Shown: piece by piece, positions 3,402 through 21,709 of the stretch | Layout: each line of letters begins with the position of its first letter | Position numbering within the stretch: position 1 is the first letter of the stretch | Notes under the pieces: generated by a model | Database searches by the model: none | The model's input: the letters and a program-made list of their open reading frames with translations, nothing else | What the model was told of the DNA's origin: nothing | IMG/VR virus record: IMGVR_UViG_3300046001_001050 | Coordinates: 1 to 21,709 of that record | DNA length: 21,709 nucleotides | DNA from: a virus | Direction: 5' to 3' (one strand) | Translations under genes and position numbers: made by a program

Positions 3402-3520
3402 TGCCCTTCCTCCTCCTCGCCCTCTTGCTCTGCTCCTGCTCGCCAAAGCCAGCGGATAACAATGTACTGCCTCGCTATTCCGATATGGGAGCAGCCACGG
3501 ATGCTGGTAATGTCAAATGA
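3401..3520 (+). CDS. Very small lipoprotein, possible outer-membrane spanin (Rz1-like)
   Basis: A 39-residue gene (ATG 3401, TGA 3518-3520) held between two overlaps: TAATG with the gene before and ATGA with the gene after. The product starts MPFLLLALLLCSCSPKPADN, a short hydrophobic signal followed by a lipobox-like LCSC, so Cys13 would be lipidated and a 27-residue mature peptide left in the periplasm. The size, signal and early Pro-Lys-Pro recall Rz1-type o-spanins, which help break the outer membrane at lysis. No Rz-like partner overlaps it, so spanin identity is an inference. An alternative is another small phage lipoprotein, for example one that blocks superinfection. Confidence 0.65.
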   Translation: MPFLLLALLLCSCSPKPADNNVLPRYSDMGAATDAGNVK

Positions 3521-4033: not shown

Positions 4034-4044
4034 GAGATAATACA

Positions 4045-6341: not shown

Positions 6342-6351
6342 AGTAGGCTTT

Positions 6352-9010: not shown

Positions 9011-9011
9011 T

Positions 9012-11264
9012 ATGGCAACAGCAGCACAGCAAGCGGCAGCAGATAAGGCAAGACTTGCAGCCATTGCGGCAATCAAAAAAGATTTGCCACAATTAGCAAA
9101 TCCAGAAGCTTATGTCACGACAGCAAATAAAGCAGATTTAGCTGGAGCTAGGAAGGAATACCTACAAACAAATCTAGGACTAAACCCAACTTTATTTAAG
9201 TCTGGTACTTCATACAACATACCATTAGCTAATAAGGCGTACGCAGTAAAGTCACTTGGCCTAGATTATACCAAGTTTGCAAAGAACGGTTACGACATAA
9301 AGCAGGCCAACGAAGCCGCAAGGTTCAAGGAACTTGGGGTAAAGGATGTTGAGTCGCTTATTGACTCCAAGGGTAAATTCAACGTAGCTGGCGGAGAAGA
9401 GAAGTTAATTAAGGATGTCTACAAACTAGACCCAGCCAATTTTGCTTTTTCTGGAACAGTAGTTGTGGGGCAAAGGCCAAATCCTGTTACTGGCAGGCAA
9501 GAAAACATAACCCAACAAGTATTGAAATATGACATCGCAAAGGCGGGTCAAAGGTTTGAAGAAGCTCGCCCAAAAATAGAGACAGTCTCGCAATATCCAG
9601 CGAACTTCACACAAGCTGTTAATAATTACTCGAAAGCTTTTGAGGCTGCAATATCGGTTGGGCTTGAGAACATAAACGATGCGGATAAGGCAACCCTTCA
9701 AAAACTAGGCAGAACAGTAAGGGACTTTGCTGGTAAAAACATCAGCGAAAATCAGCGCAGCATTATTGATAGAATCAATGACGTAGATACGACAATCAAT
9801 AATTATGATGCTCAAAGAAGAATTACGGCAGAGCAAGCCAGAAACATCCCTGGAACGCCAGAATACAATGCTCTTACTGTCCCAGAAAAGGCAGCAGCAA
9901 ATGCAGCGTGGAGGCTAAACAAGGACAAGAATGCCGCATATTCAAAACTCCGTATTGATAGAGAGTCAATCACCCGCCTTGCCACTGATGCAAAAAACCT
10001 AGCTCCTCGCTTTCAAGAATCATTTACTAGATATGGCCTATCTGATGTTGTTCAAGGCATTGGAGGAAGGGCCGCCGATCTTGCCAAGGTTGATACTGGG
10101 CTTGCAAATCTTCGCGCCAATAAAGTCTTTGGAACTGATGCGTTGTCTGGGAAGTTAAACTCTCAAGTTACAGACGATCAGATTCTTAATGACATCAACA
10201 CGGCCAGAAAGAATGAGTATAAAAGCCTGTATGATATTGGCACAGCCGCAACAACCGATCTGCAAAGCCAGATTGCTCAAGCCAACCAGTTCTTGTCCGA
10301 TCTTCCAGCAAACGACCCTAGGCGTGCCGAAGCACAGAAATCAATTGATAGCCTAAATTCAGAATTGGCAGAGGCGCAAAAGGATACTCTTGAGGCTAAG
10401 AATCTTTTTGAGAATTATCAGCCCGTATCTGGCGAGCAAGCTACTGGTGCAATATCGCAATTCAGAGAATCCTTACGCCTTCCAGAAGAACGGACACTAA
10501 GGCAGATTGACGAGATTGACCCCACTGTTGGCGCGACTGTTCGCGGTCTTGCCAAGCAGTACCAGACGATGGCAGAGACTCCTCTTGAGGCAACGACCAG
10601 CCCAGAGACAGAAGCCTTTAGGCGTGATGTTGAACAACGGATTGCTGGTCAAGTTGCGCTAGGCTCACAGCTTGGTGCGGAAGAGCAGAGGCAGTACCAG
10701 CAGGCTGCAAGGGCAGCGCAGACTGCCAGAGGCAATATCTTTGGTGTAGCACCAGCCGTAGAGGAAGCAGTCACAACGGGATTGGCTGGGGAGCAAAGAC
10801 TTCAGGCTCGCCTTGGTGCAGCCCAAGGATTCTTGGCTTCTGGTCAAAGTATGTCAGACGCAATGGCGCGTGACGTTGGTCTGCGTAACGCCCTTACTCA
10901 ATCCCGCCTTGGCGCGGCTCAAGGCTTTATTGCAAGCGGTCCTACGCTGTACAACTTGGCTTCACAGCGTCTTGGACAACAGCAGAATATTCTTAACAAT
11001 TACCTAGCAGCCTCCGCACCTCAAGCCACTGGTGGCTTCCAAGCCACACCTTCAGCCGCCAATCCGTACGCCTATGTCAATCCTAACGCTGGATTCATTG
11101 GCGCGCAGAATGCGGCCAGCATTTACAATACGTTGGCGGATTTACAAGCCAGTCAGTATGGTTCGCAGGTTGGGGCATTGTCTAGGCAGGAAACTGGATC
11201 GCAAGCATTTGGGAATATTGCCTCTGGTCTTGGTAGTCTATTTAGTTTCAGCAAGGGATTTTAA
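9012..11264 (+). CDS. Large helical internal virion / ejection protein candidate
   Basis: A 750-residue Ala/Gln/Lys-rich protein, mostly helix. Residues about 50-150 hold degenerate 27-residue repeats (unit pattern LGLxxxxFxxxGYDIxxAN). A central coiled-coil region (about 200-470) contains the STLQ/SDLP-type heptads around AQKSIDSLNSELAEAQKDTL. The C-terminal part has two copies of RLGAAQGF(L/I)ASG at residues 600 and 632 and a Gly/Ser/Ala-rich end, GNIASGLGSLFSFSKGF, that could insert in membranes. It lies between a small internal protein and a 1114-residue protein, the place of DNA-ejection proteins. No enzyme motif seen. The assignment is from order and composition. Confidence 0.55.
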   Translation: MATAAQQAAADKARLAAIAAIKKDLPQLANPEAYVTTANKADLAGARKEYLQTNLGLNPTLFKSGTSYNIPLANKAYAVKSLGLDYTKFAKNGYDIKQANEAARFKELGVKDVESLIDSKGKFNVAGGEEKLIKDVYKLDPANFAFSGTVVVGQRPNPVTGRQENITQQVLKYDIAKAGQRFEEARPKIETVSQYPANFTQAVNNYSKAFEAAISVGLENINDADKATLQKLGRTVRDFAGKNISENQRSIIDRINDVDTTINNYDAQRRITAEQARNIPGTPEYNALTVPEKAAANAAWRLNKDKNAAYSKLRIDRESITRLATDAKNLAPRFQESFTRYGLSDVVQGIGGRAADLAKVDTGLANLRANKVFGTDALSGKLNSQVTDDQILNDINTARKNEYKSLYDIGTAATTDLQSQIAQANQFLSDLPANDPRRAEAQKSIDSLNSELAEAQKDTLEAKNLFENYQPVSGEQATGAISQFRESLRLPEERTLRQIDEIDPTVGATVRGLAKQYQTMAETPLEATTSPETEAFRRDVEQRIAGQVALGSQLGAEEQRQYQQAARAAQTARGNIFGVAPAVEEAVTTGLAGEQRLQARLGAAQGFLASGQSMSDAMARDVGLRNALTQSRLGAAQGFIASGPTLYNLASQRLGQQQNILNNYLAASAPQATGGFQATPSAANPYAYVNPNAGFIGAQNAASIYNTLADLQASQYGSQVGALSRQETGSQAFGNIASGLGSLFSFSKGF
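9159..9401 (+). repeat. Degenerate 27-residue repeats in the 750-residue protein
   Basis: About three tandem units, starting near residues 50, 78 and 104, share the pattern of a helix ending in LGL or LGV, then a variable FxxxG turn, then a Tyr/Phe-x-Ile/Val-x-x-Ala-Asn segment. A fourth degraded unit may follow at residues 131-150. Seen only at protein level. Confidence 0.5.
10809..10940 (+). repeat. Paired RLGAAQGF(L/I)ASG segments
   Basis: Two 12-residue segments start at codons 600 (base 10809) and 632 (base 10905). They differ by one residue (Leu/Ile) and at many synonymous bases, so the protein motif is kept while the DNA has drifted. They lie in the C-terminal, Gly/Ala-rich part of the internal protein. 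Confidence 0.7.
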
Positions 11265-11287
11265 CAAACTATAATTGGAGCAATAAT

Positions 11288-11935
11288 ATGGCAATGTTTA
11301 ATTTTAATCTTGATGGGCAAAAAGAAGTCGCAAAACCAATGCGGTCTTATATTGATATTGACGCAGACGGAAGACCAAAGGCGCGGGTTTATGCTGATGA
11401 ATATGATACGGTAAAATCCAACCCAGACTTTGAGCCTTTTCTTAATGGTGCTGGAAGAAATATGCAAACAGCGCAAGATACTTTTGCAGATGAAATGAAC
11501 GAAGCAAGAATTGAGGCTGTCGAGAAAAGAATTAAAGCAAAAAGGCAGGAAACAATTAAAGCCGAAACAGAAGCGAGAGAAGCGCAAGCAGAGGGAAATG
11601 TGTATACTGGCCCAGACTTTTTGGGTAGTATTGGTGGGTTGCGTAAAACTTTTACAGAGAAGGCAACATCTCGCCAAGAAGAGCTAAAGAAATTACTTGA
11701 AGAGCGTGCTGGCTATATGGGTACTCCAGAAATTTCTGCTCCTATGGATGCCGTAGGATCTGAGCCGATGCAAGAGCAAGCTCCCGCAACTCAGAATGAA
11801 TATATAAACTTGAGATCTCCGAATGGAAGTGTTCAGAGAATAAAGAAAAGCGCATGGAGTGGTCAGTCAAAAACTAAGCCTGGAAAGAAAGTTTCTGAAG
11901 TATATTTAGATTCGGGATATTCAATCGTCCCTTAA
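11288..11935 (+). CDS. Hypothetical internal virion protein with coiled coil
   Basis: A 215-residue protein with GGAG at 11277-11280 before ATG 11288. The N-terminus (FNFNLDGQKEVAKPMRSYID) is followed by a strongly charged coiled coil (about residues 60-145: MNEARIEAVEKRIKAKRQET and onward, then RQEELKKLLEERAGYMGTPE). The C-terminal end has a basic SH3-like beta segment (YINLRSPNGSVQRIKKS, KKVSEVYLDSGYSIV). It lies between the two large ejection-protein candidates, which suggests it is packed in or assembles with them. No family recognised. Confidence 0.55.
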   Translation: MAMFNFNLDGQKEVAKPMRSYIDIDADGRPKARVYADEYDTVKSNPDFEPFLNGAGRNMQTAQDTFADEMNEARIEAVEKRIKAKRQETIKAETEAREAQAEGNVYTGPDFLGSIGGLRKTFTEKATSRQEELKKLLEERAGYMGTPEISAPMDAVGSEPMQEQAPATQNEYINLRSPNGSVQRIKKSAWSGQSKTKPGKKVSEVYLDSGYSIVP

Positions 11936-11939
11936 CGCA

Positions 11940-14900
11940 ATGGCTCAGGTTGCAGATCCCGAGGGGTTGCTTGAGCCTATTGAGCAGCAAGCGCAAGAAC
12001 AGCAAGATCCAGAGGGTCTTCTTGAATCACCAACTCAAGCACCACAACAAGCGGCACAAGATCCAGAGGGATTGCTTGAGTCAGTAGAAGAAAAGCCATC
12101 AAGACTAGGTGCTGTTGGCAGAGCAGTTGCTGAAGAGTTTTTACCAGCTACTGCTGCTGGTCTTGCAGTAAAGGGAATAAGCTCATTACCGATACCAACA
12201 GTTCCAAAGTTCTTGCTTGGAGCAACTGGCGCAATTGTATCGGCTGGCGCGGCTGGCAGACTACAAGAAGAGGCCGCAAGGAAGATTGCTGGAGACAAGG
12301 CCGTAGAAGAGTTTAAGGCGCAAAGACAGCGTGATATAGCGGAATATCCAGTATCTACTTTTGTTGCATCAGCCCTAACTCCAACTGCTGGTGCAATTAT
12401 TGGCGTGGGTAGAAAAGGATTGACGGCAGCAGGGCAAGCTGTTCGTGGGGCTTTCACAAAGTCTGAGACTGTCGCGCCGAAGGTTGAGGAAGCTGTTGCG
12501 CCCAAAGTTGCTGGAGAGATTGCCGAACAATTGCCAGTACAGCAAGAGCTACCATTGGGAGGAGTTGCCAAAACAAGCGAAGATATTGCCAAGGAAAGAG
12601 CGCAATTGATAGCAAATGTGGAGGCACAAGCCGAACCAGGGCAGAAGATAAGCAAGTTTGCGGAAAGATTGATAGCCTCCGAGCGCACGCCAGATGACAT
12701 TGCCAAGGCGATTGCTGACAATAGGTCATTGTATAATACTTTTTCACCCAAAGGCATTGCGGAAAATTTGCAAAAACTTTCACCGCAACAAAGGAATGTA
12801 TTCGCCCAATCAGATGACTTGGTTGGCAAGGTTGCAAAACAAGTCAATATGAATGAATCGTTTGATCTTAACGATATACCAGCAGCTAAAGCTCAGTTTC
12901 TTGAGGTTAGAAAAGGATACACAAATGCTGGTCAATTGCTGAATGTAGCCAAGCTTGCTGTCACAAATCCGTTTCAATACGCATTTACTTTAGAGAGAAC
13001 TCTTGAAAGTGCCGCAAGGCAATATGCAACAAAAGGGGAAAAGGCAATGCAGGCTGCGGAGGCGGCAAAGCAACTTACTCCAGAGCTAGAGAAGCAAGCC
13101 ATAACTTTATTCAAGAATAAGCAAGTTGCAGAAAAAGCAATGCGCGAAGCCTATGATAAGGCAAGAACTGATTTCTCCAAGAAAGCAGACCAACTGGCAG
13201 AGCAACGCCAATCCGAAGCACTGCTGGCAAGCGGTAAGCTGGCTGAATTTGAATCTGAATTGTTGGCAAAACAATTGGGAATGCAAATACCAGATTATAT
13301 CAGAGGCAATCTTTTAACTACTCTATCCCAAGGCGCAAACATATTGGGAAATACGGTCAATATGCCGACACGCGCTGCGACTAGGCAGGTTGCGTCGTTG
13401 TTGGATCAAATTGAAAGGAATATAATAAGGCCAGTTGCCACAAGAATACCTGGGGTAAAAGGCGTTGCTGAAAAGTATCTGGCAAAAGAGAGGCAGTTTA
13501 TGTCTCCGCTTGGGCGAGGCTCGCTAGAAAGATTTATTGAAGTCGGGAAGGGCGGAGGCAGAGGGCTAAAGGAAGGAGTGGCTGGCCTTAAAACAGGCAT
13601 ATCTCCAGAGGGTCTTTTGTCTGGCGAAAACATACGAGGCTTTAGACCATTGAACGCTTGGAAACAATTGTTTACTGGAAAGGGATTAGCCCAGCCTATT
13701 GCAGAAGGCATAGAAGGAACTGCCGCAAAGGCGATGGATCGGGCAAGGCTTCTTGCAGAAGGCACGCTTGGAATCCCGCCAGAAGTTATGTTTAGGCTTT
13801 TGCAACTTGGAGATACTCCAGCAAGAAGAATGGCTCAAGCAAGATTGCTTACTGAAGCAAGGCAATTAGAGGGTCTAAAGGGCGAAGCACTTAGGCGCGC
13901 AGTAAAATATCCGACACAACTAGAAGTAGATAAGGTAGCATCTGAAGTTGCTGAAGCAGTTTACCAGCAGGACACAAAGCTATCTAGGGGCATACAATAC
14001 CTAGCAGAGCTTGCCCCAAAATATCTTGAGAAAATACCAGGAGTGGGACGGCCACTAGCTGGCGTGGCAAGAACAGCAACAACGGCAGTTCTGCCATTCC
14101 AAAAAACGCCAACAAATGTAATTGACGAAATTCTGCAATACTCAATTCCAGAATATTCTTTTATCCGTGGTCTTGCTGAACAAGGACAAGGCAACTTTAG
14201 GCAGGCAAAACTACAGTTTGCAAAATCTATCGTTGGGTACGCAATTGGAAATATCGCAGATGTCTTGTCTAAAGCTGGCGTTATAACAGACGAAATGCCA
14301 AAGTCAGACAAGGCGAGGGACGTGCAATTCCAAGCCGCGCCATCCAAAATGATAAACATTGATGGCGTGAAAAGGTTTTTGCAAACTGGATCTAGGCAAG
14401 AGATGGAGTCTGGGGATTCATTAAGATCGCTTGAAAGACTTGGCGTTGTTGGTGCGATTATGTCAACTCGCAACGCAGCCAATCAAGCTACTGAAGGCGG
14501 GACAGGATCATTGGGCGAAGCATGGGGCGCAACACTTCCAGAAACTCTTAAATTTGGATTCAATCAAAGCTTCCTGAGAAACATGAATAGCTTGCTTGGA
14601 ACAATTTCTAGGGGCGAAGCAAAAGATATGGACGCTTGGCTTGCAAATTACTATGGGGCGTTGTCGGCTGCGGTATTGCCAAATCAGTTAACATCAGTTT
14701 CTAGGTATATGAGCGAAAATATGCCAGACAAGATTCAAGTTAAGGACATAGAAGGTGGCGATTTTGGAACAAAGTCTTACAACATATTCAAGGAAGTGGT
14801 TAAGAGAAAGTTGCCTGGTGGTGCTGAAGGTTTGCCTTCAAGAATAAACGTATGGGGCGAGACAATACCTCAAACGCCAGAAGGTGTCGATCCATTTATC

Positions 14901-15284
14901 TATAATTTCATAGATCCAACAAGACCAAGGCGGGTCACTTACGATGACGTGGCTCTCGCTGCTTATGATTTGTATAAGAAGACTGGAAAAACCGAAGGTA
15001 TCCCGCAAGTTCCAGACCGAGATTTGCAGGTCTTAAAAAGAAGGACTGGTCAGAAGGCAAGATTTAGACTTGACCCAACGCTTTATGAGGAATACGCAAG
15101 CGCAGTTGGCAAGGCAAACAGGCAAGTTGCGGAACAACTTTTAGGTGATAAAAGATTTAGAAGGCTTGATCCAGAAGAACAAGTCAAAACACTGTCTAAT
15201 GCTTACAACAAAGCAAGTAAGACCGCTAGAGAGAACTTCATCAGAAAGAACCAAAGAAGTATAGAGTTTGGACAGGAGTTATAA
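11940..15284 (+). CDS. Giant internal virion / DNA-ejection protein candidate
   Basis: A 1114-residue protein, the largest in the window. The N-terminus has three DPEGLLE motifs (residues 6, 23 and 41) separated by Gln-rich linkers. Two hydrophobic Ala/Gly stretches follow (about residues 62-103 and 137-170), with patterns such as FLLGATGAIVSAGAAGRL, that could form membrane helices after release. The middle is long helices. The last 200 residues contain VVKRKLPGGAEGLPSRINVW, then VDPFIYNFIDPTRPRRVTYD and VALAAYDLYKKTGKTEGIPQ, a C-terminal pattern found in large phage internal proteins. There is no lysozyme domain, but a GH108-like gene follows directly. The likely role is forming a channel across the envelope for DNA entry; this is inference. 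Confidence 0.6.
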   Translation: MAQVADPEGLLEPIEQQAQEQQDPEGLLESPTQAPQQAAQDPEGLLESVEEKPSRLGAVGRAVAEEFLPATAAGLAVKGISSLPIPTVPKFLLGATGAIVSAGAAGRLQEEAARKIAGDKAVEEFKAQRQRDIAEYPVSTFVASALTPTAGAIIGVGRKGLTAAGQAVRGAFTKSETVAPKVEEAVAPKVAGEIAEQLPVQQELPLGGVAKTSEDIAKERAQLIANVEAQAEPGQKISKFAERLIASERTPDDIAKAIADNRSLYNTFSPKGIAENLQKLSPQQRNVFAQSDDLVGKVAKQVNMNESFDLNDIPAAKAQFLEVRKGYTNAGQLLNVAKLAVTNPFQYAFTLERTLESAARQYATKGEKAMQAAEAAKQLTPELEKQAITLFKNKQVAEKAMREAYDKARTDFSKKADQLAEQRQSEALLASGKLAEFESELLAKQLGMQIPDYIRGNLLTTLSQGANILGNTVNMPTRAATRQVASLLDQIERNIIRPVATRIPGVKGVAEKYLAKERQFMSPLGRGSLERFIEVGKGGGRGLKEGVAGLKTGISPEGLLSGENIRGFRPLNAWKQLFTGKGLAQPIAEGIEGTAAKAMDRARLLAEGTLGIPPEVMFRLLQLGDTPARRMAQARLLTEARQLEGLKGEALRRAVKYPTQLEVDKVASEVAEAVYQQDTKLSRGIQYLAELAPKYLEKIPGVGRPLAGVARTATTAVLPFQKTPTNVIDEILQYSIPEYSFIRGLAEQGQGNFRQAKLQFAKSIVGYAIGNIADVLSKAGVITDEMPKSDKARDVQFQAAPSKMINIDGVKRFLQTGSRQEMESGDSLRSLERLGVVGAIMSTRNAANQATEGGTGSLGEAWGATLPETLKFGFNQSFLRNMNSLLGTISRGEAKDMDAWLANYYGALSAAVLPNQLTSVSRYMSENMPDKIQVKDIEGGDFGTKSYNIFKEVVKRKLPGGAEGLPSRINVWGETIPQTPEGVDPFIYNFIDPTRPRRVTYDDVALAAYDLYKKTGKTEGIPQVPDRDLQVLKRRTGQKARFRLDPTLYEEYASAVGKANRQVAEQLLGDKRFRRLDPEEQVKTLSNAYNKASKTARENFIRKNQRSIEFGQEL
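11955..12080 (+). repeat. Three DPEGLLE motifs at the N-terminus of the ejection protein
   Basis: DPEGLLE occurs at residues 6, 23 and 41, with spacings of 17 and 18 residues and Gln/Ala/Pro-rich linkers between. The codons differ between copies (GAGGGG, GAGGGT and GAGGGA in the middle), so the motif is kept by selection rather than by recent copying. It could be a docking peptide for another virion protein. Confidence 0.75.
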
Positions 15285-15285
15285 T

Positions 15286-16428
15286 ATGGCAAAATTCAAC
15301 GTAAACCCAAGTAAAGATGTTCTCACACCCCAAATGCGAGAATCAATGAATAGGATTTTAGAAGGAGGAAATATGGAGAAAGATATGACCAATCGTTCTA
15401 TTGCTGAAGATTTAACCAACAGGCCGTATGTACCAGTTCCAGATGATATTCGCGGAGAGTCTTCTCGCCTATTGCTTGATCCTGCTGGTGCTGGCGAAGT
15501 CGGCACTACAGTAGGTGGCGCGCCAAATACAAGGGCAATGATGGATGCAGATTTGCGGCAACAAATAGAGGGCAAGCTTGATGAGGGTGCTGGTGGTGTG
15601 CCAGCCAGCGCAATGCCATACCAAGAGCCAGCCGCATCAAGACCAGTGCAACCTCGCGGAACTAGAGCAGGGACTGGGAATGCGCTGAATGATTGGGTTG
15701 CCAATAATACCATTAACTGGGAGGCAAGAAGGGATAAGCAAGGCAATTTAGCTGTATACGATATTCCATCTGGAGACTACGGCGGCACAAGAGAAGTCGC
15801 TGGAATTACGGATAAGTACCATCCAGAGGCGTTTAAGCGCATATCTGCATTACCTCCAGCACAAAGAGAGAAGGCGAGCGCAGACTATGTGCTTGAATAC
15901 ACTGCTCCAATTGCAAATCTTGTACCAGAACCATTGAAGGCTCAAGCTGTTGACTTGGGATTTAATCGCGGTCCTGGCGGATACACGACATTAGTGCAAC
16001 AAGGATTGAATGCGTTAGGAGTTCCAGTAAAAGTTGACGGGGCGTTTGGCAGGAAAACATTGGATGCAATGAATCAAGTAGATCCAGAGCAGTTAATTAA
16101 CGCTACTGAGGATGCTTACCTACGGAAAGAACGCGCAATGGCGGAGGCCGATCCGAATAGAGCGAAACTATATCAAGGCATAGTGAATCGCTCAAACAAA
16201 AGAAGGCAATCTGCAACAATGTATGCCAAGGCCAACTTGCCATACACAGGACCACTCGAACCAGAGGTTAAGCCTCCACCCAAAGAAAATGTGGATGAGT
16301 CTTCTCCAAGATACGCAATGGCAAACTTACCTTACATTGGCCCACTAGAACCAGAAGTTAAGCCTCCGCGCAAAGAGGAGGAGGTTGAGGACTACTCGCC
16401 AAGACCACTAGGACTTGGGCTTGGTTAG
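15286..16428 (+). CDS. GH108-like muramidase (virion lysozyme or endolysin) with duplicated Pro-rich tail
   Basis: A 380-residue protein predicted to cut the glycan chains of peptidoglycan. The start at 15286 is taken because AGGAG (15274-15278) lies 7 bases before it; an ATG at 15268 would overlap the upstream gene. Residues 1-135 are a low-complexity linker. The catalytic domain runs about 140-305: NWEARRD (Glu146 fits the catalytic Glu), a DYGG then GITDKYHP segment matching the GGxTxxGI-x-YHP pattern of GH108, DLGFNRGPGG, then the peptidoglycan-binding-3-like VKVDGAFGRKTLDAMN and a closing LYQGIVNRSNKR. Residues 313-372 are a tandem repeat. There is no signal peptide. Its place after the ejection proteins favours a virion-borne enzyme, but an endolysin is possible. 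It meets the next gene tail to tail with a 4-base overlap. Confidence 0.75.
   Translation: MAKFNVNPSKDVLTPQMRESMNRILEGGNMEKDMTNRSIAEDLTNRPYVPVPDDIRGESSRLLLDPAGAGEVGTTVGGAPNTRAMMDADLRQQIEGKLDEGAGGVPASAMPYQEPAASRPVQPRGTRAGTGNALNDWVANNTINWEARRDKQGNLAVYDIPSGDYGGTREVAGITDKYHPEAFKRISALPPAQREKASADYVLEYTAPIANLVPEPLKAQAVDLGFNRGPGGYTTLVQQGLNALGVPVKVDGAFGRKTLDAMNQVDPEQLINATEDAYLRKERAMAEADPNRAKLYQGIVNRSNKRRQSATMYAKANLPYTGPLEPEVKPPPKENVDESSPRYAMANLPYIGPLEPEVKPPRKEEEVEDYSPRPLGLGLG
16222..16401 (+). repeat. Tandem 30-residue repeat at the muramidase C-terminus
   Basis: Two 90-base units begin at 16222 and 16312. Both encode YAxANLPYxGPLEPEVKPPx followed by an acidic, Ser-Pro-containing linker. The first 20 residues are nearly identical, but the DNA differs at several third positions. 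The Pro/Glu-rich form suggests a flexible arm or docking tail. Confidence 0.85.
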
Positions 16429-16787
16429 TCGTCAATCTTGGGCTTACTGGTAATCCAAGAGCCTTTCTCCCCATCAAAATAAGAATTGCCATTCTTCCAA
16501 GAGGAGGAGCTTCCATAAAAAAAGCTACCAGATTTAACAACTAGCTTGCCATTACTAAATACTTGCTTCCCATTCGCACCGTAATAACCACCAGATGTCG
16601 CAAAACCCCTGCCATTGGAATAGATGAATTTACCATCTGATGTTACTGCGGTGTTTCTGCCAGTAATGATTGCTGATTTGCCAAGCACACCTCCAGCAAA
16701 ATCACCAATACTTACTTCATCATCTTCATCCGCCATCACCGATGCCATCAGCATCGCCGTCAGTGTTATCATTGTTATTGCTTTCAT
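16425..16787 (-). CDS. Secreted Gly/aromatic-repeat protein on the reverse strand
   Basis: A 120-residue protein, the only gene on the - strand. It begins MKAITMITLTAMLMASVMA, a good signal peptide with cleavage probable after VMA, and continues with an acidic DEDDE. The mature part is built of short degenerate units of the form aromatic-x-(N/D)-G-K (FIYSNGRG, YYGANGKQVFSNGK, FFYGSSSSWKNGNSYFDGEK), suggesting a beta-repeat with MORN-like spacing. There is no cysteine. Its stop (TTA, 16425-16427) overlaps the muramidase stop. The ribosome site is weak (GAGACTTTT), and on the - strand a TTGACG (16823-16818) could be a -35 box. A secreted accessory product acting at the host envelope is plausible; function unknown. 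Confidence 0.7.
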   Translation of the reverse strand: MKAITMITLTAMLMASVMADEDDEVSIGDFAGGVLGKSAIITGRNTAVTSDGKFIYSNGRGFATSGGYYGANGKQVFSNGKLVVKSGSFFYGSSSSWKNGNSYFDGEKGSWITSKPKIDD

Positions 16788-16825
16788 AGTGAAAAGTCTC
16801 TAGCACAAACCGAAAACCGTCAAGC

Positions 16826-17209
16826 ATGAAATTAACATCACGCCAAGTTGGTGCGGTAGGGGTAGCTCGCGTTACTGGCGCGTTGCTGCGGTGCGGGTAT
16901 AACGTGCTTACGCCCTACGAGGATTTCGCTGGGTATGATGTGGTGGCCGAGAAGAACAATAAGTTTTTCCGCATCCAAGTTAAGACCGCGCAGACCGTAG
17001 AACCTGGGCGCACCAAGTACCGCTTCACCACCAGCAGTGGCAATGGATTTAATATCCCCAAGCGCGCTATCAGTGGCGTGGATTATGTGGCCTGCTGGGG
17101 TATGAACGATGACCTTTTCTGGCTGTTACCCATCGCCAAGTGCAAAAGCATAACAACTAAACTTTGTCCATCGACAGGTCAGAACTGGCGTGTATTCCAA
17201 AGCTTGTGA
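16826..17209 (+). CDS. PD-(D/E)XK protein, intron homing-endonuclease-like (PDDEXK_5 type)
   Basis: A 127-residue protein. An opening helix with VGAVGVARVTGALLRCGYNV is followed by EDFAGYDVVAEKNNKFFRIQ, VKTAQ, a beta run, then VDYVACWGMNDDLFWLLPIA. This is the layout of small PD-(D/E)XK proteins related to group I intron homing endonucleases. Asp38 (GYDVV) and the Gln51-x-Lys53 pair (RIQVKT) fit the active site. The helix motif is normally GxxGE; here the Glu is Val13, so cleavage activity may be weak or lost. ATG 16826 lacks a clear ribosome site. It ends in a possible GTGA overlap with the next gene. Alternatives are a standalone nuclease or a catalytically dead DNA-binding protein. Confidence 0.6.
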   Translation: MKLTSRQVGAVGVARVTGALLRCGYNVLTPYEDFAGYDVVAEKNNKFFRIQVKTAQTVEPGRTKYRFTTSSGNGFNIPKRAISGVDYVACWGMNDDLFWLLPIAKCKSITTKLCPSTGQNWRVFQSL

Positions 17210-17385
17210 ACGAGAAAGAAGCGTGGGCTAAGTTCGAGGCTGGGTTAAAGGACATGGAGTCCTTCGATGAGGCTGTAGCTTGGGTGAAGAAGAACAAGAA
17301 GATCGTAGAGAAACTGACTATGATGGCAATGATTAGACGATTTAATGAGGATATTAGCAAAGCTAATAAGACTTGGCGCAACTAA
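17206..17385 (+). CDS. Small helical hypothetical protein
   Basis: A 59-residue protein if the GTG at 17206 (in the GTGA overlap with the previous stop) is used; a TTG at 17164 would give 73 residues but a 46-base overlap. It is rich in Lys, Glu and Ala and reads as two or three helices (NEKEAWAKFEAGLKDMESF, DEAVAWVKKNKKIVEKLTMM, IRRFNEDISKANKTWRN). No motif or membrane segment is seen. It lies between two PD-(D/E)XK genes and may be a small DNA-associated protein. Function unknown. Confidence 0.5.
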   Translation: MNEKEAWAKFEAGLKDMESFDEAVAWVKKNKKIVEKLTMMAMIRRFNEDISKANKTWRN

Positions 17386-17439
17386 AATAGATTAAAATAT
17401 ATATCGACACCATTGCGGGTTGACAGCTAAACCCGATGG
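17386..17439 (+). promoter_or_regulatory. AT-rich gap with weak promoter-like and hairpin signals before the resolvase gene
   Basis: This is one of the few gaps between genes here. It contains the AT-rich run ATTAAAATATATAT (17391-17404), which could hold a -10 box (TATATA at 17398-17403) with TTGGCG (17373-17378) 19 bases upstream, a poor match. A 6-bp inverted repeat, CGGGTT (17416-17421) and AACCCG (17430-17435), sits just before ATG 17440 and has no T-run. No AAGGAG precedes that start, so the hairpin may affect translation. Confidence 0.3.
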
Positions 17440-17886
17440 ATGGGCAAAATCAATAGTCGGGCTAAAGGCGCAGCGGGTGAGAGAGAGTTAGCAAATTACT
17501 TGCGCGAACAAGGATGGCAGAAGGCTCGCCGTAGCCAACAGTTCGCAGGCAATCCCGAAGGCGGTAGCGGTGACGTAGTCTGCGAGAACTTTCCATTTCA
17601 TATTGAAGGCAAGCGTTGCCAAGCACTCAAACCCGAAGACTGGATGGCGCAGGCCAAGCGTGACTGCCCAGCGGGCAAGATCCCATCTGTATTCTTCCGC
17701 CGTAACGGACGCAAAGAATGGCTAGTCATAATGACCGCCGATAGCGTGTGTGAATTGGCTCGACAGATAGCACCAGCCAATGTCACTATCGAGTATGCAA
17801 AGACCGCAACCATCGCGCAGGGCTTTTACGTCAAGTCACCAGCCTTTGAAGACCTTACCCCAACAACAATAAACCCAAACAAATAA
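17440..17886 (+). CDS. Holliday-junction-resolvase-like PD-(D/E)XK nuclease
   Basis: A 148-residue protein of the small phage resolvase type. Motifs in order: KGAAGERELANYLRE (Glu14), RRSQQFAGNPEGGSGDVV (Asp45), FHIEGKR (Glu56 and Lys58), then a QAKRDC helix and IPSVFFRRNGRKEWLVIM, the strand that closes the fold. All four active-site residues of the PD-(D/E)XK signature are present. Such proteins resolve branched DNA during recombination and packaging. It lies upstream of SSB-like and RecB-like genes. The last 30 residues are a variable tail. The frame ends shortly before the next AAGGAG. Enzyme class is fairly secure; exact substrate is not. Confidence 0.72.
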   Translation: MGKINSRAKGAAGERELANYLREQGWQKARRSQQFAGNPEGGSGDVVCENFPFHIEGKRCQALKPEDWMAQAKRDCPAGKIPSVFFRRNGRKEWLVIMTADSVCELARQIAPANVTIEYAKTATIAQGFYVKSPAFEDLTPTTINPNK

Positions 17887-17902
17887 ATAAAGGAGAAATA
17901 AC

Positions 17903-18544
17903 ATGGGACTAACCATAAGTGAATCAGCAAAACAAGAACGCAAGTTGCCCGAAGCTGGCGCAACCGTAGGCGTTCTTTACAGCCTAGTTGATCTAGGCCA
18001 CCAGAAAACAAATTGGGACAACCAAGAGAAGTGGACACCTAAGGTCCGCTTGACCTTTGAGTTGCCCGATCAAACCGATGAGTTTGAGGTAGAAGAGAAT
18101 GGCAAACGCACCACAGTCCAGAAGCCTATGGTCGTTTCCATTGAGCAGACCCGCAGCCTTGGCGAGAAAGCAAGCCTTCGCAAGCTTCTCGAGCAGTGGC
18201 GCGGTCAGACCTTTACTTCCAAGGAACTCCAAGCATTCAGCTTGAAGAACCTTCTTGGTAAGCCAGCTATGCTGACCTTGATCCACAAGACCAGCCAGCA
18301 GGGTCGGCAATACTGTGCAATCGCAGGTGCATCCAAGCTGCCCAAGGGTATGAAAGCACCAGCCACCACAACTAACGATCAGTTGTATTACGAGATCGAG
18401 CAGGGTGAGGCTGGGCAGTTCAATGATATGCCAGATTGGTTGCAGGAAAAAATCCGCGCCTCCAAGGAGTTTGCTACCGCTGCTGGTAAGTCCACGGCCA
18501 CTAAGGTCGAGGTGGACGCAGACGGCAACCAAGTGCCATTCTAA
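17903..18544 (+). CDS. Probable single-stranded-DNA-binding-like recombination protein
   Basis: A 213-residue protein with AAGGAG (17890-17895) 7 bases before ATG 17903. The N-terminal 140 residues look like one OB-type beta barrel: TVGVLYSLVDLGHQKTNWD, KWTPKVRLTFELPD, a middle loop, KASLRKLLEQWRGQTFTSKE, LLGKPAMLTLIHKTSQQGRQ and CAIAGASKLPKGM. The C-terminus is flexible and ends VDADGNQVPF, like the acidic-aromatic tip of many SSBs that recruits partners. It sits directly upstream of a RecB/Cas4-like exonuclease, as SSB-like proteins often do in phage recombination modules. The family is recognised only by pattern; an uncharacterised DUF669-like protein is the alternative. Confidence 0.6.
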   Translation: MGLTISESAKQERKLPEAGATVGVLYSLVDLGHQKTNWDNQEKWTPKVRLTFELPDQTDEFEVEENGKRTTVQKPMVVSIEQTRSLGEKASLRKLLEQWRGQTFTSKELQAFSLKNLLGKPAMLTLIHKTSQQGRQYCAIAGASKLPKGMKAPATTTNDQLYYEIEQGEAGQFNDMPDWLQEKIRASKEFATAAGKSTATKVEVDADGNQVPF

Positions 18545-18549
18545 ATTGT

Positions 18550-19368
18550 ATGGCTCTTACAATCACAGCGAAAGAGCCTACTAATTCCCGTCTGGTCGCA
18601 ACTGACCAGGCGGGACATTGGTACACAGCCGAGGGTGAATCCGCCCACGTTGTGATTGGCAAGAACGGAAAAGAAAGAAACACAACCGTAGCCGATGCAC
18701 GCCAGATGGGATTATACCCATCCGTAACCAGCGTACTTGGCATTATGGATAAGCCGCAATTGACGGCGTGGAAGATAGAGCAGGCAATTATGTCCTCGCT
18801 CACACTTCCGAAGGAGGCAGATGAAACGCTCGAAACCTACGCTCGAAGAGTGGTTAAGGACTCTAAAGAATCAACAACGAAAGCAGCTGAACACGGCACG
18901 AAAATGCACACTGAAATGGAGAACATCCTCTTGGGAAGAGCCGTATCCAAAGATGAAACACTTGCTCCATACATTGAAACCTTTAAGAAGTGGGCCGATG
19001 CAAACATTGAGAAAACCTACTGGTGCGAAAAAGGCTTGGTGGGTGCTGGTTACGCTGGAAGATCCGATGCCTATGTAAGAATGAAGGGTGTTGGTGACGC
19101 AATGATCGACTTGAAGAATCGCAAGGTAAACCCTAAGTACGATCCTTTCTACGATACAGATTGCGCCCAGCTTTGGGCATACAGGAATGCAAGCGAGAAT
19201 CCTAAATGTGCCTGCGTGTCGGTGGTCCTAGCGTCAAACGATGCTACCAAGCTGATGACGAAGGTGTGGGACGAAGACGAACTCTACCAAGCTGGTATTG
19301 CCTTCTGCGCGATGCAGAAAGTATGGGCTTGGGTCAAGGGCTACACGCCTCCTGGTATGAAGTTATGA
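18550..19368 (+). CDS. RecB/Cas4-like PD-(D/E)XK exonuclease
   Basis: A 272-residue nuclease starting 5 bases after the SSB-like stop. Motifs in order: YPSVTSVLGIMDKPQLTAWK (residues 57-75), GTKMHTEME (His120), YWCEKGLV (Glu160), GYAGRSDAYV (Asp173), MIDLKNRK (Asp187 and Lys189) and CAQLWAYR (Gln207 and Tyr211). This is the motif set of RecB-type nucleases, including Cas4 and phage lambda-type exonucleases. There are no four cysteines for an iron-sulfur cluster, so it is not a standard Cas4. It probably trims DNA ends to expose single strands for the SSB-like partner. ATGA overlap with a tiny downstream frame at 19365. Confidence 0.75.
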   Translation: MALTITAKEPTNSRLVATDQAGHWYTAEGESAHVVIGKNGKERNTTVADARQMGLYPSVTSVLGIMDKPQLTAWKIEQAIMSSLTLPKEADETLETYARRVVKDSKESTTKAAEHGTKMHTEMENILLGRAVSKDETLAPYIETFKKWADANIEKTYWCEKGLVGAGYAGRSDAYVRMKGVGDAMIDLKNRKVNPKYDPFYDTDCAQLWAYRNASENPKCACVSVVLASNDATKLMTKVWDEDELYQAGIAFCAMQKVWAWVKGYTPPGMKL

Positions 19369-19436
19369 TCGACCCAGCAGATGTCTTATGGCTAGAAGGA
19401 TTACTCGACCAATTCTATAGGAGTTTAGCAAAATGA
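19365..19436 (+). CDS. 23-residue frame bridging two genes by ATGA overlaps
   Basis: ATG 19365 sits in the exonuclease stop (ATGA) and its own TGA (19434-19436) sits in the start of the next gene (ATGA, 19433-19436). The product is MIDPADVLWLEGLLDQFYRS followed by LAK, helical and acidic. AGGAG at 19419-19423 for the next gene lies inside it. Two precise overlaps make accidental occurrence less likely. It may be a real microprotein or simply a ribosome-coupling leader. Confidence 0.4.
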   Translation: MIDPADVLWLEGLLDQFYRSLAK

Positions 19437-19729
19437 ATGCACCTACAATCCAAGAGATGGGTAACGCTGCGCAGGAGATAGTCTGGCGCGTTATGGGCAA
19501 GGGATCGGATAAGTCGCAATACGGAGATTGGTTGGAGAAGGATAGGCCGACTCACGATTACCATATTGCCAGAGCAATTCGCCACCTAGCTACAGCGCAG
19601 ATGCAGTTGCACAAGTCCTCGCCTTGTCCAGATAATAACGGTGAAACAAGCGTTGACCACCTTGAGCGTGCGCTGGTAAGGTCGCTGTTCGTGTTAGCAC
19701 AAATCAAAAAGGAAGTACCAAGACTATGA
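19433..19729 (+). CDS. Hypothetical protein, possible dATP/dGTP diphosphohydrolase-like (DUF5664) fragment
   Basis: A 98-residue helical protein with AGGAG at 19419-19423. A YGDW motif (QYGDWLEKDRPTHDYHIARA) precedes IRHLATAQMQLHKSS, and the second half has VDHLERALVRSLFVLAQIKK. This loosely matches phage DUF5664-type proteins, in which an N-terminal YG-x-W segment precedes an RHL helix and an HL-x-x-A helix. The likeness is weak and it has fewer metal ligands than expected. Alternative: an unrelated helical phage protein. ATGA overlaps occur at both ends. Confidence 0.6.
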   Translation: MNAPTIQEMGNAAQEIVWRVMGKGSDKSQYGDWLEKDRPTHDYHIARAIRHLATAQMQLHKSSPCPDNNGETSVDHLERALVRSLFVLAQIKKEVPRL

Positions 19730-19896
19730 ACCAAGAAGAAATAGACAAAGATTGGGATGAGTTTTTCAGCAAGCCTCGTCCTTGGCTTTACTCAAACTAT
19801 GGAGACAAGGCAAGCGACAGCGATGAATCTGAAACACAGGAATCTTTCCAGAAGTTTTGCGATAACGAAGGAAACAATAGGTATCCCAGAGAATGA
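19726..19896 (+). CDS. Small acidic hypothetical protein
   Basis: A 56-residue gene starting in the ATGA overlap and ending in another, with AAGGAAG (19709-19715) upstream. It starts MNQEEIDKDWDEFFSKPRPW and goes on with an Asp/Glu/Ser-rich, probably disordered stretch (DKASDSDESETQESFQKF). There is one cysteine. It is strongly acidic, like some phage inhibitors that mimic DNA, but no match is recognised, so this is only a compositional hint. Confidence 0.6.
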   Translation: MNQEEIDKDWDEFFSKPRPWLYSNYGDKASDSDESETQESFQKFCDNEGNNRYPRE

Positions 19897-20030
19897 AGAT
19901 CACTCGCGTAGTTAAGATTGACGGAGGCTGGGAGCTTTACGGCATATCCGAAAAGGAGAAGAAAGAAATCCAAGTTGGCTTTTGTGGCGAAAACCTACCG
20001 CTGGATTCTTGGGTTAGGATTGAAAAATGA
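19893..20030 (+). CDS. Small hypothetical protein, 45 residues
   Basis: ATG 19893 overlaps the previous stop and TGA 20028-20030 overlaps the next start (ATGA at both ends). The product begins MKITRVVKIDGGWELYGISE and has a Lys/Glu-rich middle and an LPLDSWVRIEK end. It reads as a tiny beta-rich domain. A longer frame over 19918-20148 covers the same DNA but breaks both overlaps and is rejected. Function unknown. Confidence 0.6.
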   Translation: MKITRVVKIDGGWELYGISEKEKKEIQVGFCGENLPLDSWVRIEK

Positions 20031-20182
20031 AGCTGGCGTTGTCTTGGATCTTTTATCACATTGGCAATATCACAAGCTTAACGCTGATGCGATTGGGTCA
20101 CGGATACGGTTTTTACAATCGAATGATGATCTGGTCATCTGCACTTGATAAACACGGCAAAATATGGAAGAACGTAAAATGA
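20027..20182 (+). CDS. Small hydrophobic protein of a widespread phage type
   Basis: A 51-residue protein, overlapped at both ends by ATGA. It starts MKLALSWIFYHIGNITSLTL and continues with MRLGHGYGFYNRMMIWSSAL and a DKHGKIWKNVK end. I recall the pattern Tyr-x-x-Gly-x-x-x-Ser ... YN-x-(L/M)-M-W-S-x-x-L-D-x-x-G-K-(I/L)-W from short phage proteins of unknown function, which supports it as a real gene. The N-terminal half may be membrane-associated. It precedes the glycosyltransferase and is co-translated with it. Confidence 0.65.
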   Translation: MKLALSWIFYHIGNITSLTLMRLGHGYGFYNRMMIWSSALDKHGKIWKNVK

Positions 20183-20844
20183 AACAAGCATTAGTAACTC
20201 AATCGTTTGGTGAGGACTGGCAGAAGATTATTGATCTGACTAGGCCGAGGATGGAGGCGTACTGCAAACGCCACAACTGCGACTTCATTCTGATCGACAA
20301 GCCACTCACGCATCCAGCGCAATACTCTAAGTCAGCGATCGGAAACATCATGGCCACTAAGGGCTATGACCAAGTCACATTCGTTGACGCAGATGTTTTG
20401 ATTGCAGCCGATTGCCCCAAGCTATCCGATGACGCTGGCGTGTTCTGTGCCTTTGACGAGGGAGCTTACTTGGATCGCAAGCCAGATATGGTGAAGTTGG
20501 CTGGAGCTTTTGGCGGGATGATCGAGCCGAAGTTCTATGTCAACACTGGCGTGTTCGTAGTTCATACCAAGGCCGTTGGTATATTATCAATGCCGCCCAT
20601 TGGCCTGCACCCTAACCACTTCGCCGAGCAGACATGGCTCAACGTGATGGCGCACCTGTGGAACATCCCGCTAACCGAGCTTGACCCTTCCTTCAATTGC
20701 ATGACCAGCGTTGAATCCCACTTTGGATTGAACCGCTACAAGGACGCGATGATTATTCATTACGCTGGGCAGTCGAACGATCTGACTAGATTATCTAACC
20801 AGATTAAAGCTGACGAAGCGAAGCTGGTGGAGCTGGGTCGGTGA
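20179..20844 (+). CDS. GT8-like glycosyltransferase
   Basis: A 221-residue enzyme that would transfer a sugar from a nucleotide-sugar. The start at 20179 is preferred because it makes an ATGA overlap; an ATG at 20164 would add five residues. Motifs fit a GT-A fold of the GT8 type: ALVTQSFGEDWQKIIDLTRP, SKSAIGNIMATKGYDQVTFVDADVL in two pieces with the metal-binding DAD (70-72), FYVNTGVFVV (120-128), EQTWLNVM and a closing IIHYAGQ (His194). Metal-binding DxD and His are both present. It has no membrane segment. In phages such enzymes may modify DNA, virion proteins or host surface sugars. Its target is unknown. Confidence 0.72.
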   Translation: MKQALVTQSFGEDWQKIIDLTRPRMEAYCKRHNCDFILIDKPLTHPAQYSKSAIGNIMATKGYDQVTFVDADVLIAADCPKLSDDAGVFCAFDEGAYLDRKPDMVKLAGAFGGMIEPKFYVNTGVFVVHTKAVGILSMPPIGLHPNHFAEQTWLNVMAHLWNIPLTELDPSFNCMTSVESHFGLNRYKDAMIIHYAGQSNDLTRLSNQIKADEAKLVELGR

Positions 20845-21161
20845 GGTCAACCCAGCTATGTCGCGGTGATTACGATGACAGAGTGCAGCAGTTGGCTGGA
20901 GAGGTTGCACTGCAGGCTATCCGCGACCTGCGGATGTTGCGCAAGAGAGGGATGGTTAAGGGCATGAAGATTGTTAAGGGTCACCAAGGCGTGCCACTCA
21001 ACGATGCGCTGGAGTATAAGAACTCGCACGAGGTACAGAAGCTACTGCGTGATTTTAAGACGGGCGTTGTCTCTTGGTGGTGCAGAGCCAGCGGGGTGCA
21101 GATTGATAACCGCACATTGTTACGGAAACTAAAGGAAAACGACTATGTTTTGCCAACTTGA
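20841..21161 (+). CDS. Hypothetical helical protein
   Basis: A 106-residue protein with a GTG start in a GTGA overlap with the glycosyltransferase stop. It is rich in Arg, Leu and Lys and largely helical: YDDRVQQLAGEVALQAIRDL, RMLRKRGMVKGMKIVKGHQG, then SHEVQKLLRDFKTGVVSWWC and a final DNRTLLRKLKEN. The Gly-Val-x-x-Trp-Trp-Cys region and the closing helix recur in small phage proteins with a DALEY-type motif, also seen here (NDALEYKNSHEV). Positive charge suggests nucleic-acid contact. It overlaps the next gene by 17 bases. Confidence 0.6.
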   Translation: MRSTQLCRGDYDDRVQQLAGEVALQAIRDLRMLRKRGMVKGMKIVKGHQGVPLNDALEYKNSHEVQKLLRDFKTGVVSWWCRASGVQIDNRTLLRKLKENDYVLPT

Positions 21162-21291
21162 TCTGGCTGGAGTTGTTTGGGTAATCGGTTGGTTTGTGCT
21201 TTACAGTTCGCTGACTTTGTCGGCAATCTACTGCGCTGGTTACTTGATCTTCAAGTTAATCGAAATCATAAGAAAGGAACTAGACAGATGA
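21145..21291 (+). CDS. Small membrane protein, 48 residues (possible pinholin-like or accessory)
   Basis: ATG 21145 follows an AGGA site (21133-21136) with good spacing and lies within the end of the previous gene. The protein, MFCQLDLAGVVWVIGWFVLY and on through SSLTLSAIYCAGYLIFKLIE, then IIRKELDR, has two adjoining hydrophobic helices or one long one and a charged C-terminal end. That size and plan are compatible with a small phage holin, pinholin or inner-membrane effector. Its stop overlaps the next start (ATGA, 21288-21291). Confidence 0.6.
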   Translation: MFCQLDLAGVVWVIGWFVLYSSLTLSAIYCAGYLIFKLIEIIRKELDR

Positions 21292-21485
21292 AAAAGAAAA
21301 ACAGAAAGATAACTCTGGTAAAAACATTAGAGCAAGAATCCGTAAGGGTAATGATCGATGTCGACGATGATCTCTACGAGGCGTTGGCAAGGGCTGGCCG
21401 TCAACACTTGGCTAAAGATAAGATGGCTTGCTTTGAGTACGCACTAAACAAGGCGTTGCTGGAACTATGCGAGGAACTCAAATGA
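21288..21485 (+). CDS. Small protein with ribbon-helix-helix-like layout
   Basis: A 65-residue protein whose start at 21288 is fixed by the ATGA overlap and an AGGA upstream (21275-21278). An in-frame start at 21177 would only translate DNA coding the membrane protein. The sequence has a basic N-terminus (KKKNRKITLVKTLEQE), a strand (SVRVMIDVD), then helices (DDLYEALARAGRQHLAKDKM, CFEYALNKALLELCEELK). That is the order of ribbon-helix-helix DNA-binding proteins, including antitoxins and phage repressors. The role is inferred; there is no adjacent toxin obvious. ATGA overlap follows. Confidence 0.55.
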   Translation: MKKKNRKITLVKTLEQESVRVMIDVDDDLYEALARAGRQHLAKDKMACFEYALNKALLELCEELK

Positions 21486-21709
21486 CCGAGTTTAAGCAGA
21501 AGGTATTAACCGCTTCAGTAGATCGCTACGTCCTGACCAAGACGCAGTGCGAGATGCTGCGCCAGGATGCGGAAATGATCGGGATGAAGCGTGCGCCTGT
21601 GCTGTCGAAGGATGGAGTAACACGTACGGTATCACGTACGCGAACCTGCTCATCGTGCTGGATACCATACGCCAAGCATCACAACTGGATTTATAATATC
21701 ATGCGAGAG
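21482..21709 (+). CDS. Hypothetical protein, runs off the window (3' partial)
   Basis: Starts in an ATGA overlap with the RHH-like gene and stays open for all 76 codons to the end of the window. The visible part begins MTEFKQKVLTASVDRYVLTK, has a basic middle (MIGMKRAPVLSKDGVTRTVS) and a CSSCW pair late on (residues about 59-63). No family recognised; the CxxC may be half of a zinc site completed beyond the window. Confidence 0.55.
   Translation, partial: MTEFKQKVLTASVDRYVLTKTQCEMLRQDAEMIGMKRAPVLSKDGVTRTVSRTRTCSSCWIPYAKHHNWIYNIMRE

Follow-up and report, generated by a model that had tools for sequence, protein, structure and literature searches.

What role does a phage assign to a single small gene for a secreted protein that is read on the strand opposite to its other genes and whose stop overlaps that of a muramidase gene? 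We addressed this question for a viral DNA of 21,709 nucleotides, hereafter called the window (the whole stretch of DNA that was analyzed), in which positions 16425 to 16787 of the minus strand encode a protein of 120 amino acids (MKAITMITLTAMLMASVMA / DEDDEVSIGDFAGGVLGK...KIDD). The striking trait of this locus is visible only by comparison: about a dozen exchangeable classes of the mature protein are found behind a mostly shared leader. The features discussed below are as follows.

11231..16720, no strand: block replaced between the window and the class-0 phage G029, which is 89 to 95% identical in long conserved stretches on both sides
11940..15284, plus: large ORF of 1114 aa, a putative internal virion or ejection protein by position and size
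15268..16428, plus: muramidase ORF (PG_binding_3; phrog_315 endolysin), the convergent neighbor
16425..16428, no strand: 4-nt overlap of the stop codons of the secreted-protein gene and the muramidase gene (80 of 106 loci)
16425..16787, minus: gene of the secreted multi-allelic protein (120 aa, class 3 of 12), from translation, 36 relatives, and class clustering
16428..16730, minus: mature domain, the exchangeable cassette, with a predicted N-terminal helix followed by 11 predicted strands
16731..16787, minus: signal peptide of 19 aa, with a cleavage site predicted from the sequence
16795..16823, minus: promoter-like element TTGACG-N17-GAGACT, whose first hexamer starts 36 nt and whose second ends 7 nt before the ATG
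16826..17209, plus: PDDEXK_5 nuclease, the divergent neighbor, hardly linked to class

The gene, its promoter-like element, and its relatives

The N terminus of the product, MKAITMITLTAMLMASVMA, has Sec-type features, namely, a Lys close to the first residue, then a hydrophobic core and small residues ahead of the cut, which probably lies before DEDD. By a simple heuristic of our own, other than SignalP, such features were present in 106 of 107 distinct loci, which is consistent with the signal peptide and secreted product proposed in the first-pass annotation of this DNA. This putative signal peptide is the sole clue that connects the protein with the cell envelope. The mature part of the window protein is made of repeated aromatic/Asn/Asp-Gly-Lys units. 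Cys is absent from the window copy, as had been pointed out, but this is not a trait of the family, since Cys was found in other classes (CGRGC and RCGD). The stop codons of the gene and the muramidase gene share positions 16425 to 16428, in agreement with the 4-base overlap described earlier; where the muramidase-side ORF could be called (106 loci), the two genes overlap by 4 nt in 80 loci, are directly adjacent in 22, and stand 2 to 9 nt apart in 4. Besides, our reading of the ORF list also identified this gene as the sole credible one on the minus strand, the other minus-strand ORFs being mostly antisense to longer plus-strand ORFs. Complete homologous genes in 107 distinct loci, together with the low dN/dS of the mature part (see below), confirm that the gene is real, well beyond chance.

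We examined the DNA between the start codons of the gene and the PDDEXK_5 nuclease, which are 38 nt apart. TTGAC was found upstream of the gene in all 107 loci, and TTGACG-N16/17-GAKACT was found in 101 of them, with its first base 34 to 36 nt and its end 6 to 7 nt before the ATG; in the remaining six loci, one hexamer departs from this pattern at one or two bases. The window form, TTGACG-N17-GAGACT, occurs once in the window and was absent from 100 of 100 shuffles. In a wider set, the element was present once each in 263 of 318 loci, and all 263 copies lie 6 to 7 nt before the ATG of an MK.. frame. As the pattern was derived from the same loci, some of which had been fetched by an overlapping pattern, the loci collected through the nuclease (see below) are the fair sample, and 79 of these 80 carry the element, including class-7 loci with an otherwise different leader. 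A Shine-Dalgarno-like AGGA, GGAG, or GAGG was found upstream of the gene in none of the 107 loci, compared with 9 of 19 other window starts checked. Based on the placement of the element and the lack of a Shine-Dalgarno sequence, we infer that the transcript would start at the ATG or a few bases from it, yielding a near-leaderless mRNA under a host-type sigma factor. The independent promoter mentioned in the first-pass annotation has a candidate in this conserved promoter-like sequence, which was not picked up by a generic promoter scan with a stricter -10 requirement. The element on the minus strand occupies most of the 38 nt between the divergent starts (16788 to 16825), and any plus-strand start signal of the nuclease must share them. 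The nuclease start has no Shine-Dalgarno sequence as well.

A scan of viral contigs yielded 36 relatives of the secreted protein, of which 10 were 84 to 96% identical to the window protein and the other 26 were 35 to 45% identical, with near-identical signal peptides and different mature parts. The upstream DNA and the signal-peptide DNA were highly similar throughout, and a DNA pattern of the upstream element matched at least 119 stretches. Because the protein scan and the DNA pattern both favor leader-sharing loci, the neighboring nuclease was also used as bait. Of the 177 relatives obtained in this way, the analysis used the best 80; as these are the nearest nucleases, more distant relatives are sampled less well. 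The secreted-protein gene was present at an identical position and orientation in 80 of these 80 loci: it was complete in 71, the contig of L087 stops after MKAITM, and the gene runs off the contig end in eight more. Furthermore, a profile search found exactly one copy in 277 of 282 sequences (281 loci plus the window, with some contigs present more than once), and the other five are fragments cut at the gene by the contig end. Thus, the secreted-protein gene is a single-copy core gene of the sampled group, not optional cargo. The first-pass annotation had suggested a moron gene, for which a lone reverse gene with its own promoter-like element at a module junction would speak, but such cargo is scarcely credible, since every sampled relative has the gene (80 of the best 80 of 177 bait loci), close relatives do not differ in its presence, and no terminator-like site was found in 15900 to 17500.

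Classes of the mature domain and their exchange

From 204 loci with a complete gene, we kept 107 that differ over about 550 nt. Their mature parts clustered into 12 classes at 60% identity (25, 23, 13, 10, 9, 6, 6, 5, 4, 3, 2, and 1 members) and into 14 at 80%, and the window protein belongs to class 3. Pairwise identities were bimodally distributed, with 11 to 57% between classes and a mean of 88 to 98% within them, save for class 1, which contains subtypes (76%). All classes can be aligned as one family, in which Val15 and Gly48 (numbering of the window mature part) are invariant and Gly13 and Gly40 are nearly so. One signal-peptide type is common to nine classes (99 of 107 loci), whereas the 8 loci of classes 7, 10, and 11 carry different ones. 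Homologues whose signal peptide is conserved, which had been named beforehand as a test of the gene, therefore exist. In equal-length pairs, the within-class means were 0.004 to 0.045 for dN and 0.10 to 0.45 for dS, class 1 apart, and the mean dN/dS of the mature part was 0.04 to 0.14 in ten of the eleven measurable classes, class 11 having a single member. Class 1 reached 0.55 (dN 0.40, dS 0.72). Because within-class dN/dS is low, we regard the classes as discrete proteins held constant by selection rather than as a cloud of point mutants. Of 70 samples, 18 had at least two loci, and more than one class coexisted in all 18, which is near the expectation of random draws, as two random loci share a class with a chance of 0.14, and is counted here as coexistence only. 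L267, a locus outside the 107, has a class-2 mature part 97% identical to that of L120 over 100 aa, a different signal peptide, and a nuclease 50% identical to that of the window.

We ran AlphaFold2 with the family alignment on the mature parts of the window and class 5. The window mature part was predicted as a helix and 11 strands (pLDDT 90.2, pTM 0.84; pLDDT of the other four models, 88, 67, 58, and 45), and that of class 5 was predicted as a helix and 12 strands (pLDDT 89.1, pTM 0.83; other models, 89 to 70). In the two models, strands recur about every 7 residues, in line with the aromatic/Gly repeat noticed earlier, and most of the class 5 domain keeps a 6+2+4+2 = 14-residue register. 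When 28 members were aligned, variability was lowest at four of the 14 phases, where Gly or aromatic residues prevail (mean entropy, 1.15 to 1.27 bits, versus 1.88 to 2.54 bits for the other ten). Foldseek detected nothing significant in BFVD (window model) or the PDB, and the best Z values of a VIA fold search were 4.2 and 4.5, none of them reliable; the weak matches were mostly antiparallel barrels, meanders, and Rhs-like shells. Of the beta-solenoid raised as a possibility in the first-pass annotation, the strands are thus predicted, and the weak matches are mostly antiparallel meanders or barrels, leaving both a solenoid and a meander as candidates. The absence of a fold match does not establish a new fold, and the mature domain, with its natural variants, may be viewed as a candidate for a new binding scaffold of beta-repeat type.

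Among annotated phages, the window protein had no match at E up to 10, class 5 had one match at E 1, class 0 had none at E up to 1, and the window had no near DNA match. Annotated phages therefore hold no convincing relative of the three class representatives compared. Nothing alike was named in three annotated regions of distant relatives, as judged from the annotated names alone. Two scans of bacterial genome contigs with a few short peptide patterns, an insensitive approach, returned 64 and 87 pattern matches, none of which was confirmed as a relative. Pfam, PHROGs, and PDB sequences gave nothing significant for the family; we take as chance the best PHROG match (E 0.0057, "PAAR," in 3 of 28 members), the best Pfam match (E 0.014, in 1 of 28 members), and the best PDB-profile match (E 0.04).

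For correlation tests on the leader and the signal peptide, classes 7, 10, and 11 were left out, and 500 permutations were run. The distance between intergenic leaders was hardly correlated with class (r 0.004, reached by 189 of 500 permutations), and neither was that between signal peptides (r 0.056, 17 of 500), although there may be a faint link for the latter. Correlation with the first 150 nt of the nuclease was higher for both the leader (r 0.21, 8 of 500) and the signal peptide (r 0.30, 0 of 500). Besides, a single signal-peptide subtype was found with up to eight classes. Because the signal peptide is hardly linked to class, we consider the mature part to be an exchangeable cassette. 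Individual pairs illustrate both sides of it: L080 and L092 share 99.4% of the mature DNA and 69.8% of the nuclease DNA, and L032 (class 4) and L047 (class 9) agree at 95.8% in the nuclease and at 96.3% over the final 600 nt of the muramidase side.

Larger exchanges were seen between the window and contig G029 (L289 plus L165, class 0). Identity was 94.5% at 1 to 1791, 89% at 3399 to 4583, 91% at 5638 to 11231, and 92 to 93.5% over most of 16720 to 21709, and 11231 to 16720 is replaced in G029 apart from a 275-nt stretch at 66.5%. Thus, the ejection block, the muramidase, and the mature domain were replaced together. The right border lies at 16720 against G029, about 10 nt inside the mature part, and at 16684 against L012, another class-0 locus, indicating that one cassette border is near the junction of signal peptide and mature part. 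These comparisons show a multi-allelic cassette locus. The replacement of 11231 to 16720 is, in itself, a clean modular exchange.

Linkage of class to other phage genes and possible functions

Across all loci, linkage was measured on alignments to the window's proteins with a coverage of at least 60%. Because this inflates the between-class distance for the muramidase, each locus's own ORFs were clustered as well (101 muramidase-side and 91 large-protein ORFs from 107 loci). Divergence within and between classes was 10% and 45% for the muramidase (z 10.7, n = 40) and 26% and 66% for the 1114-aa ORF at 11940 to 15284 (z 19.7, n = 41), which has no family match. The gene at 9012 to 11264 was weakly linked to class (z 3.2), and those at 5643 to 6341 and 6352 to 8184 showed no link. 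The nuclease, 38 nt off on the other side, was hardly linked (9.5% within versus 10.5% between; z 1.7, 21/500, n = 106), and several early genes farther right were moderately linked (SSB, z 5.1; exonuclease, z 4.2; 20164 to 20844, z 3.7). The ORF at 20164 to 20844 stands alone and reads to us like a small glycosyltransferase; its weak match in PHROGs is phrog_28746, of unknown function (E 2e-4). In the C-terminal tail of the muramidase (window 16222 to 16425), the tandem repeat YAxANLPYxGPLEPEVKPP occurs twice, and, in the last 22 residues compared, a tail ending in GLGL[SG] is confined to class 3 (10 of 10).

Clustering of the loci's own ORFs placed 43 loci of classes 1, 2, 4, 5, 6, and 9 in one muramidase cluster, built from the C-terminal 170 aa with a linkage threshold of 90% identity. 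We defined a background P of 32 loci of classes 2, 4, 5, 6, and 9 with a muramidase tail of LSTFGQG or LSAFGQG, leaving out class-1 loci with a similar muramidase and another large protein. Within P, class was linked neither to the muramidase (z -1.9 to 0.8), whose variation is small there by construction, nor to the large protein (z at most 2.3 over the 31 segments compared; n = 22), nor to the other genes tested (z -1.5 to 1.0, with as few as 9 and at most 31 loci per gene). Furthermore, class 6 is present on more than one muramidase/ejection background. Outside P (75 loci), the large ORF co-varies with class, and so do early genes (SSB, z 6.2; 20841 to 21161, z 4.4; exonuclease, z 4.0; nuclease, z 2.8), a pattern suggestive of lineage structure. 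That class tracks the muramidase, the large protein, and early genes could reflect either a partner encoded by the phage or no more than lineage structure. For the loci outside P, adjacency and the lack of homology for exchange between dissimilar muramidases explain the linkage, in our reading, at least in part. In L030, L077, L078, L080, and other background-P loci, the complete large virion ORFs measure about 1363 to 1630 aa (stop to stop), and their size varies in a poorly shared central region (alignment columns 540 to 840).

As the tail fibre, we took the ORF ending beside the conserved 5643-to-6341 homologue; it exceeded 150 aa in 23 of 37 contigs, and the other 14 were dropped. Uneven fibre matches inside class 0 had given an early hint that fibre and class are not linked, and similarity was indeed 26.1% within and 25.7% between classes (z 0.1, n = 23). 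An exclusion directed at the fibre receptor would predict that class tracks fibre type, and class does not track this candidate ORF, whose role as the receptor binder is uncertain. A match to the tail fibre was set aside on the strength of this candidate ORF, whereas a match to the phage's own muramidase or large virion protein, suggested by the linkage over all loci, was weakened by its absence within P. No phage gene tested is a consistent partner for class. Because neither P nor the tail fibre offers a matched partner, a target outside the phage is more likely, though the partner may lie among phage genes beyond those covered. Among phages with near-identical capsid genes, the fibre ORF (window 4045 to 5646) is extremely mosaic, and several fibre ORFs have a common coiled-coil-like end (..LEALEAK), which we take to be a candidate chaperone-type C terminus. 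The tail-type protein at 6352 to 8184 occurs in two kinds, about 40 to 43% identical to that of the window in many contigs and 57 to 98% identical in others, with no clear link to the class of the secreted protein.

We tentatively propose that the protein is an early exported specificity factor that blocks superinfection through a specific envelope target and whose types are swapped as cassettes, a reading to which we give somewhat less than an even chance. The small protein would be exported early in infection from a host-type promoter of its own, facing the late structural genes, and its mature domain, in which a regular beta-repeat sheet is predicted to follow a helix, would act in the periplasm or at the envelope. 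Incoming phages would depend on an envelope target there; by binding one specific form of it, the protein might block superinfection and perhaps also avoid the loss of progeny to debris. Discrete forms of targets or competitors could keep about a dozen specificity classes stable. A phage would gain a new class by homologous exchange, with homology provided by the leader/signal peptide and the muramidase 3' end, and the swapped unit would be the mature cassette of about 300 nt or the cassette with the whole ejection/muramidase block. Superinfection exclusion is proposed here by analogy, because the protein has no known homologue and no fold match. A bolder extension, in our view unlikely, is that the gene forms a core phage compatibility system of about a dozen cassettes, possibly with an unseen beta-repeat fold, that is maintained by frequency-dependent selection and decides coinfection. 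If so, several exclusion types would circulate within one phage population and pass between its members by recombination.

The main rival, which we consider somewhat unlikely, is that the exported protein serves counter-defence or host conditioning: it would bind a polymorphic envelope or periplasmic protein of the host, such as a defence factor, a protease, or a lysozyme inhibitor, and aid the current infection with no exclusion of other phages, its classes mirroring host alleles. Discrete, stable classes under purifying selection and the lack of a matched phage gene in background P fit host polymorphism equally well, and classes coexist in 18 of 18 multi-locus samples, though random draws would mostly do so. 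The protein has, however, no significant family match in Pfam, PHROGs, or PDB sequences, and most described counter-defence proteins act in the cytoplasm. Sequence alone does not separate this rival from superinfection exclusion.

Quite improbable is a cognate inhibitor, similar to Spackle, in which each class would fit the type of virion muramidase or ejection proteins that its own phage encodes. The convergent gene that overlaps or abuts the muramidase side, the linkage of class over all loci to the muramidase and the large virion protein set against the hardly linked nuclease, and the joint replacement of ejection block, muramidase, and mature domain between the window and G029 would all accord with it. 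These points are offset by the muramidase cluster that spans 43 loci of six classes, the lack of linkage in the five classes of P, and the occurrence of class 6 on more than one background; linkage elsewhere is explicable by adjacency and by dissimilar muramidases that lack homology. Still less probable, in our judgment very unlikely, is an extracellular or virion-surface accessory or lysis-related protein whose diversity represents neutral or immune-like turnover without exclusion. A signal peptide, a Gly/aromatic beta-repeat, and an adjoining peptidoglycan-active enzyme would suit such a protein, but a late structural or lytic function sits poorly with a promoter-like element that points against the late genes, as does neutral turnover with the low within-class dN/dS.

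Comparison with known systems

Superinfection exclusion, the reading that we prefer, has precedents among small proteins that virulent phages export early: the respective papers describe T4 Spackle (PMC7677548) and T5 Llp (PMC9586334) as exclusion factors, and PMC11990801 also names Llp and Cor. PMC7677548 presents Spackle as a disulfide-bearing bundle of alpha helices that is, in general, highly conserved across its 178 homologues. The protein studied here resembles Spackle (gp61.3) as a small exported phage protein, with features of a cleavable export signal in 106 of 107 loci by our sequence-level heuristic, and would resemble it further if its presumed periplasmic site, early expression, and exclusion role hold. 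Spackle targets the virion lysozyme, and the gene here adjoins a muramidase gene. Unlike Spackle, the protein is predicted to be beta-rich (one helix and 11 to 12 strands), has no Cys in the window copy, falls into about 12 divergent classes, and is unmatched to the muramidase in background P.

According to PMC9586334, Llp inactivates an outer-membrane receptor from the periplasmic side. T5 Llp and T1 Cor are likewise small exported proteins and inactivate such receptors; they are lipoproteins, whereas the Cys-free window protein has no lipobox with an acylated Cys, and class here is unlinked to the candidate tail-fibre ORF (z 0.1, n = 23). Because fold and conservation are unlike those of Spackle and the lipobox is lacking, the protein is, as tested, a member of neither family. 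T5 llp runs against the neighboring late gene of the receptor binder. We know of no swappable mature cassette behind a common signal peptide for Llp or Cor.

Polymorphic toxins have, as described in PMC3482391, a conserved part and a variable part that is exchanged by recombination with cassettes. The locus is similar in its conserved part and its variable part swapped by recombination, but its variable parts are homologous and form one alignable family rather than unrelated toxin domains, the whole protein has 120 aa, and no adjacent immunity gene was recognized, the neighbors being a muramidase and a nuclease. Targets of diversity-generating retroelements are also variable binding proteins, some of them in phages. 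Judged from the class pattern, identity with such a target is unlikely: we found discrete, synonymously diverged classes, purifying selection, and block exchange rather than point-mutated variants.

Most work on exported superinfection-exclusion proteins has dealt with individual model phages. Here, an uncultivated phage group has a core signal-peptide gene with about a dozen stable, tradable types. If the proposed function is true, the type specificity of exclusion in natural populations becomes testable, as does the question of whether exclusion structures which phages recombine. We did not find such a locus described in a search of the open-access literature. Thus, the core, multi-allelic, cassette-swapping form and the predicted beta-repeat domain are new as far as searched, and in kind the protein resembles known exclusion proteins.
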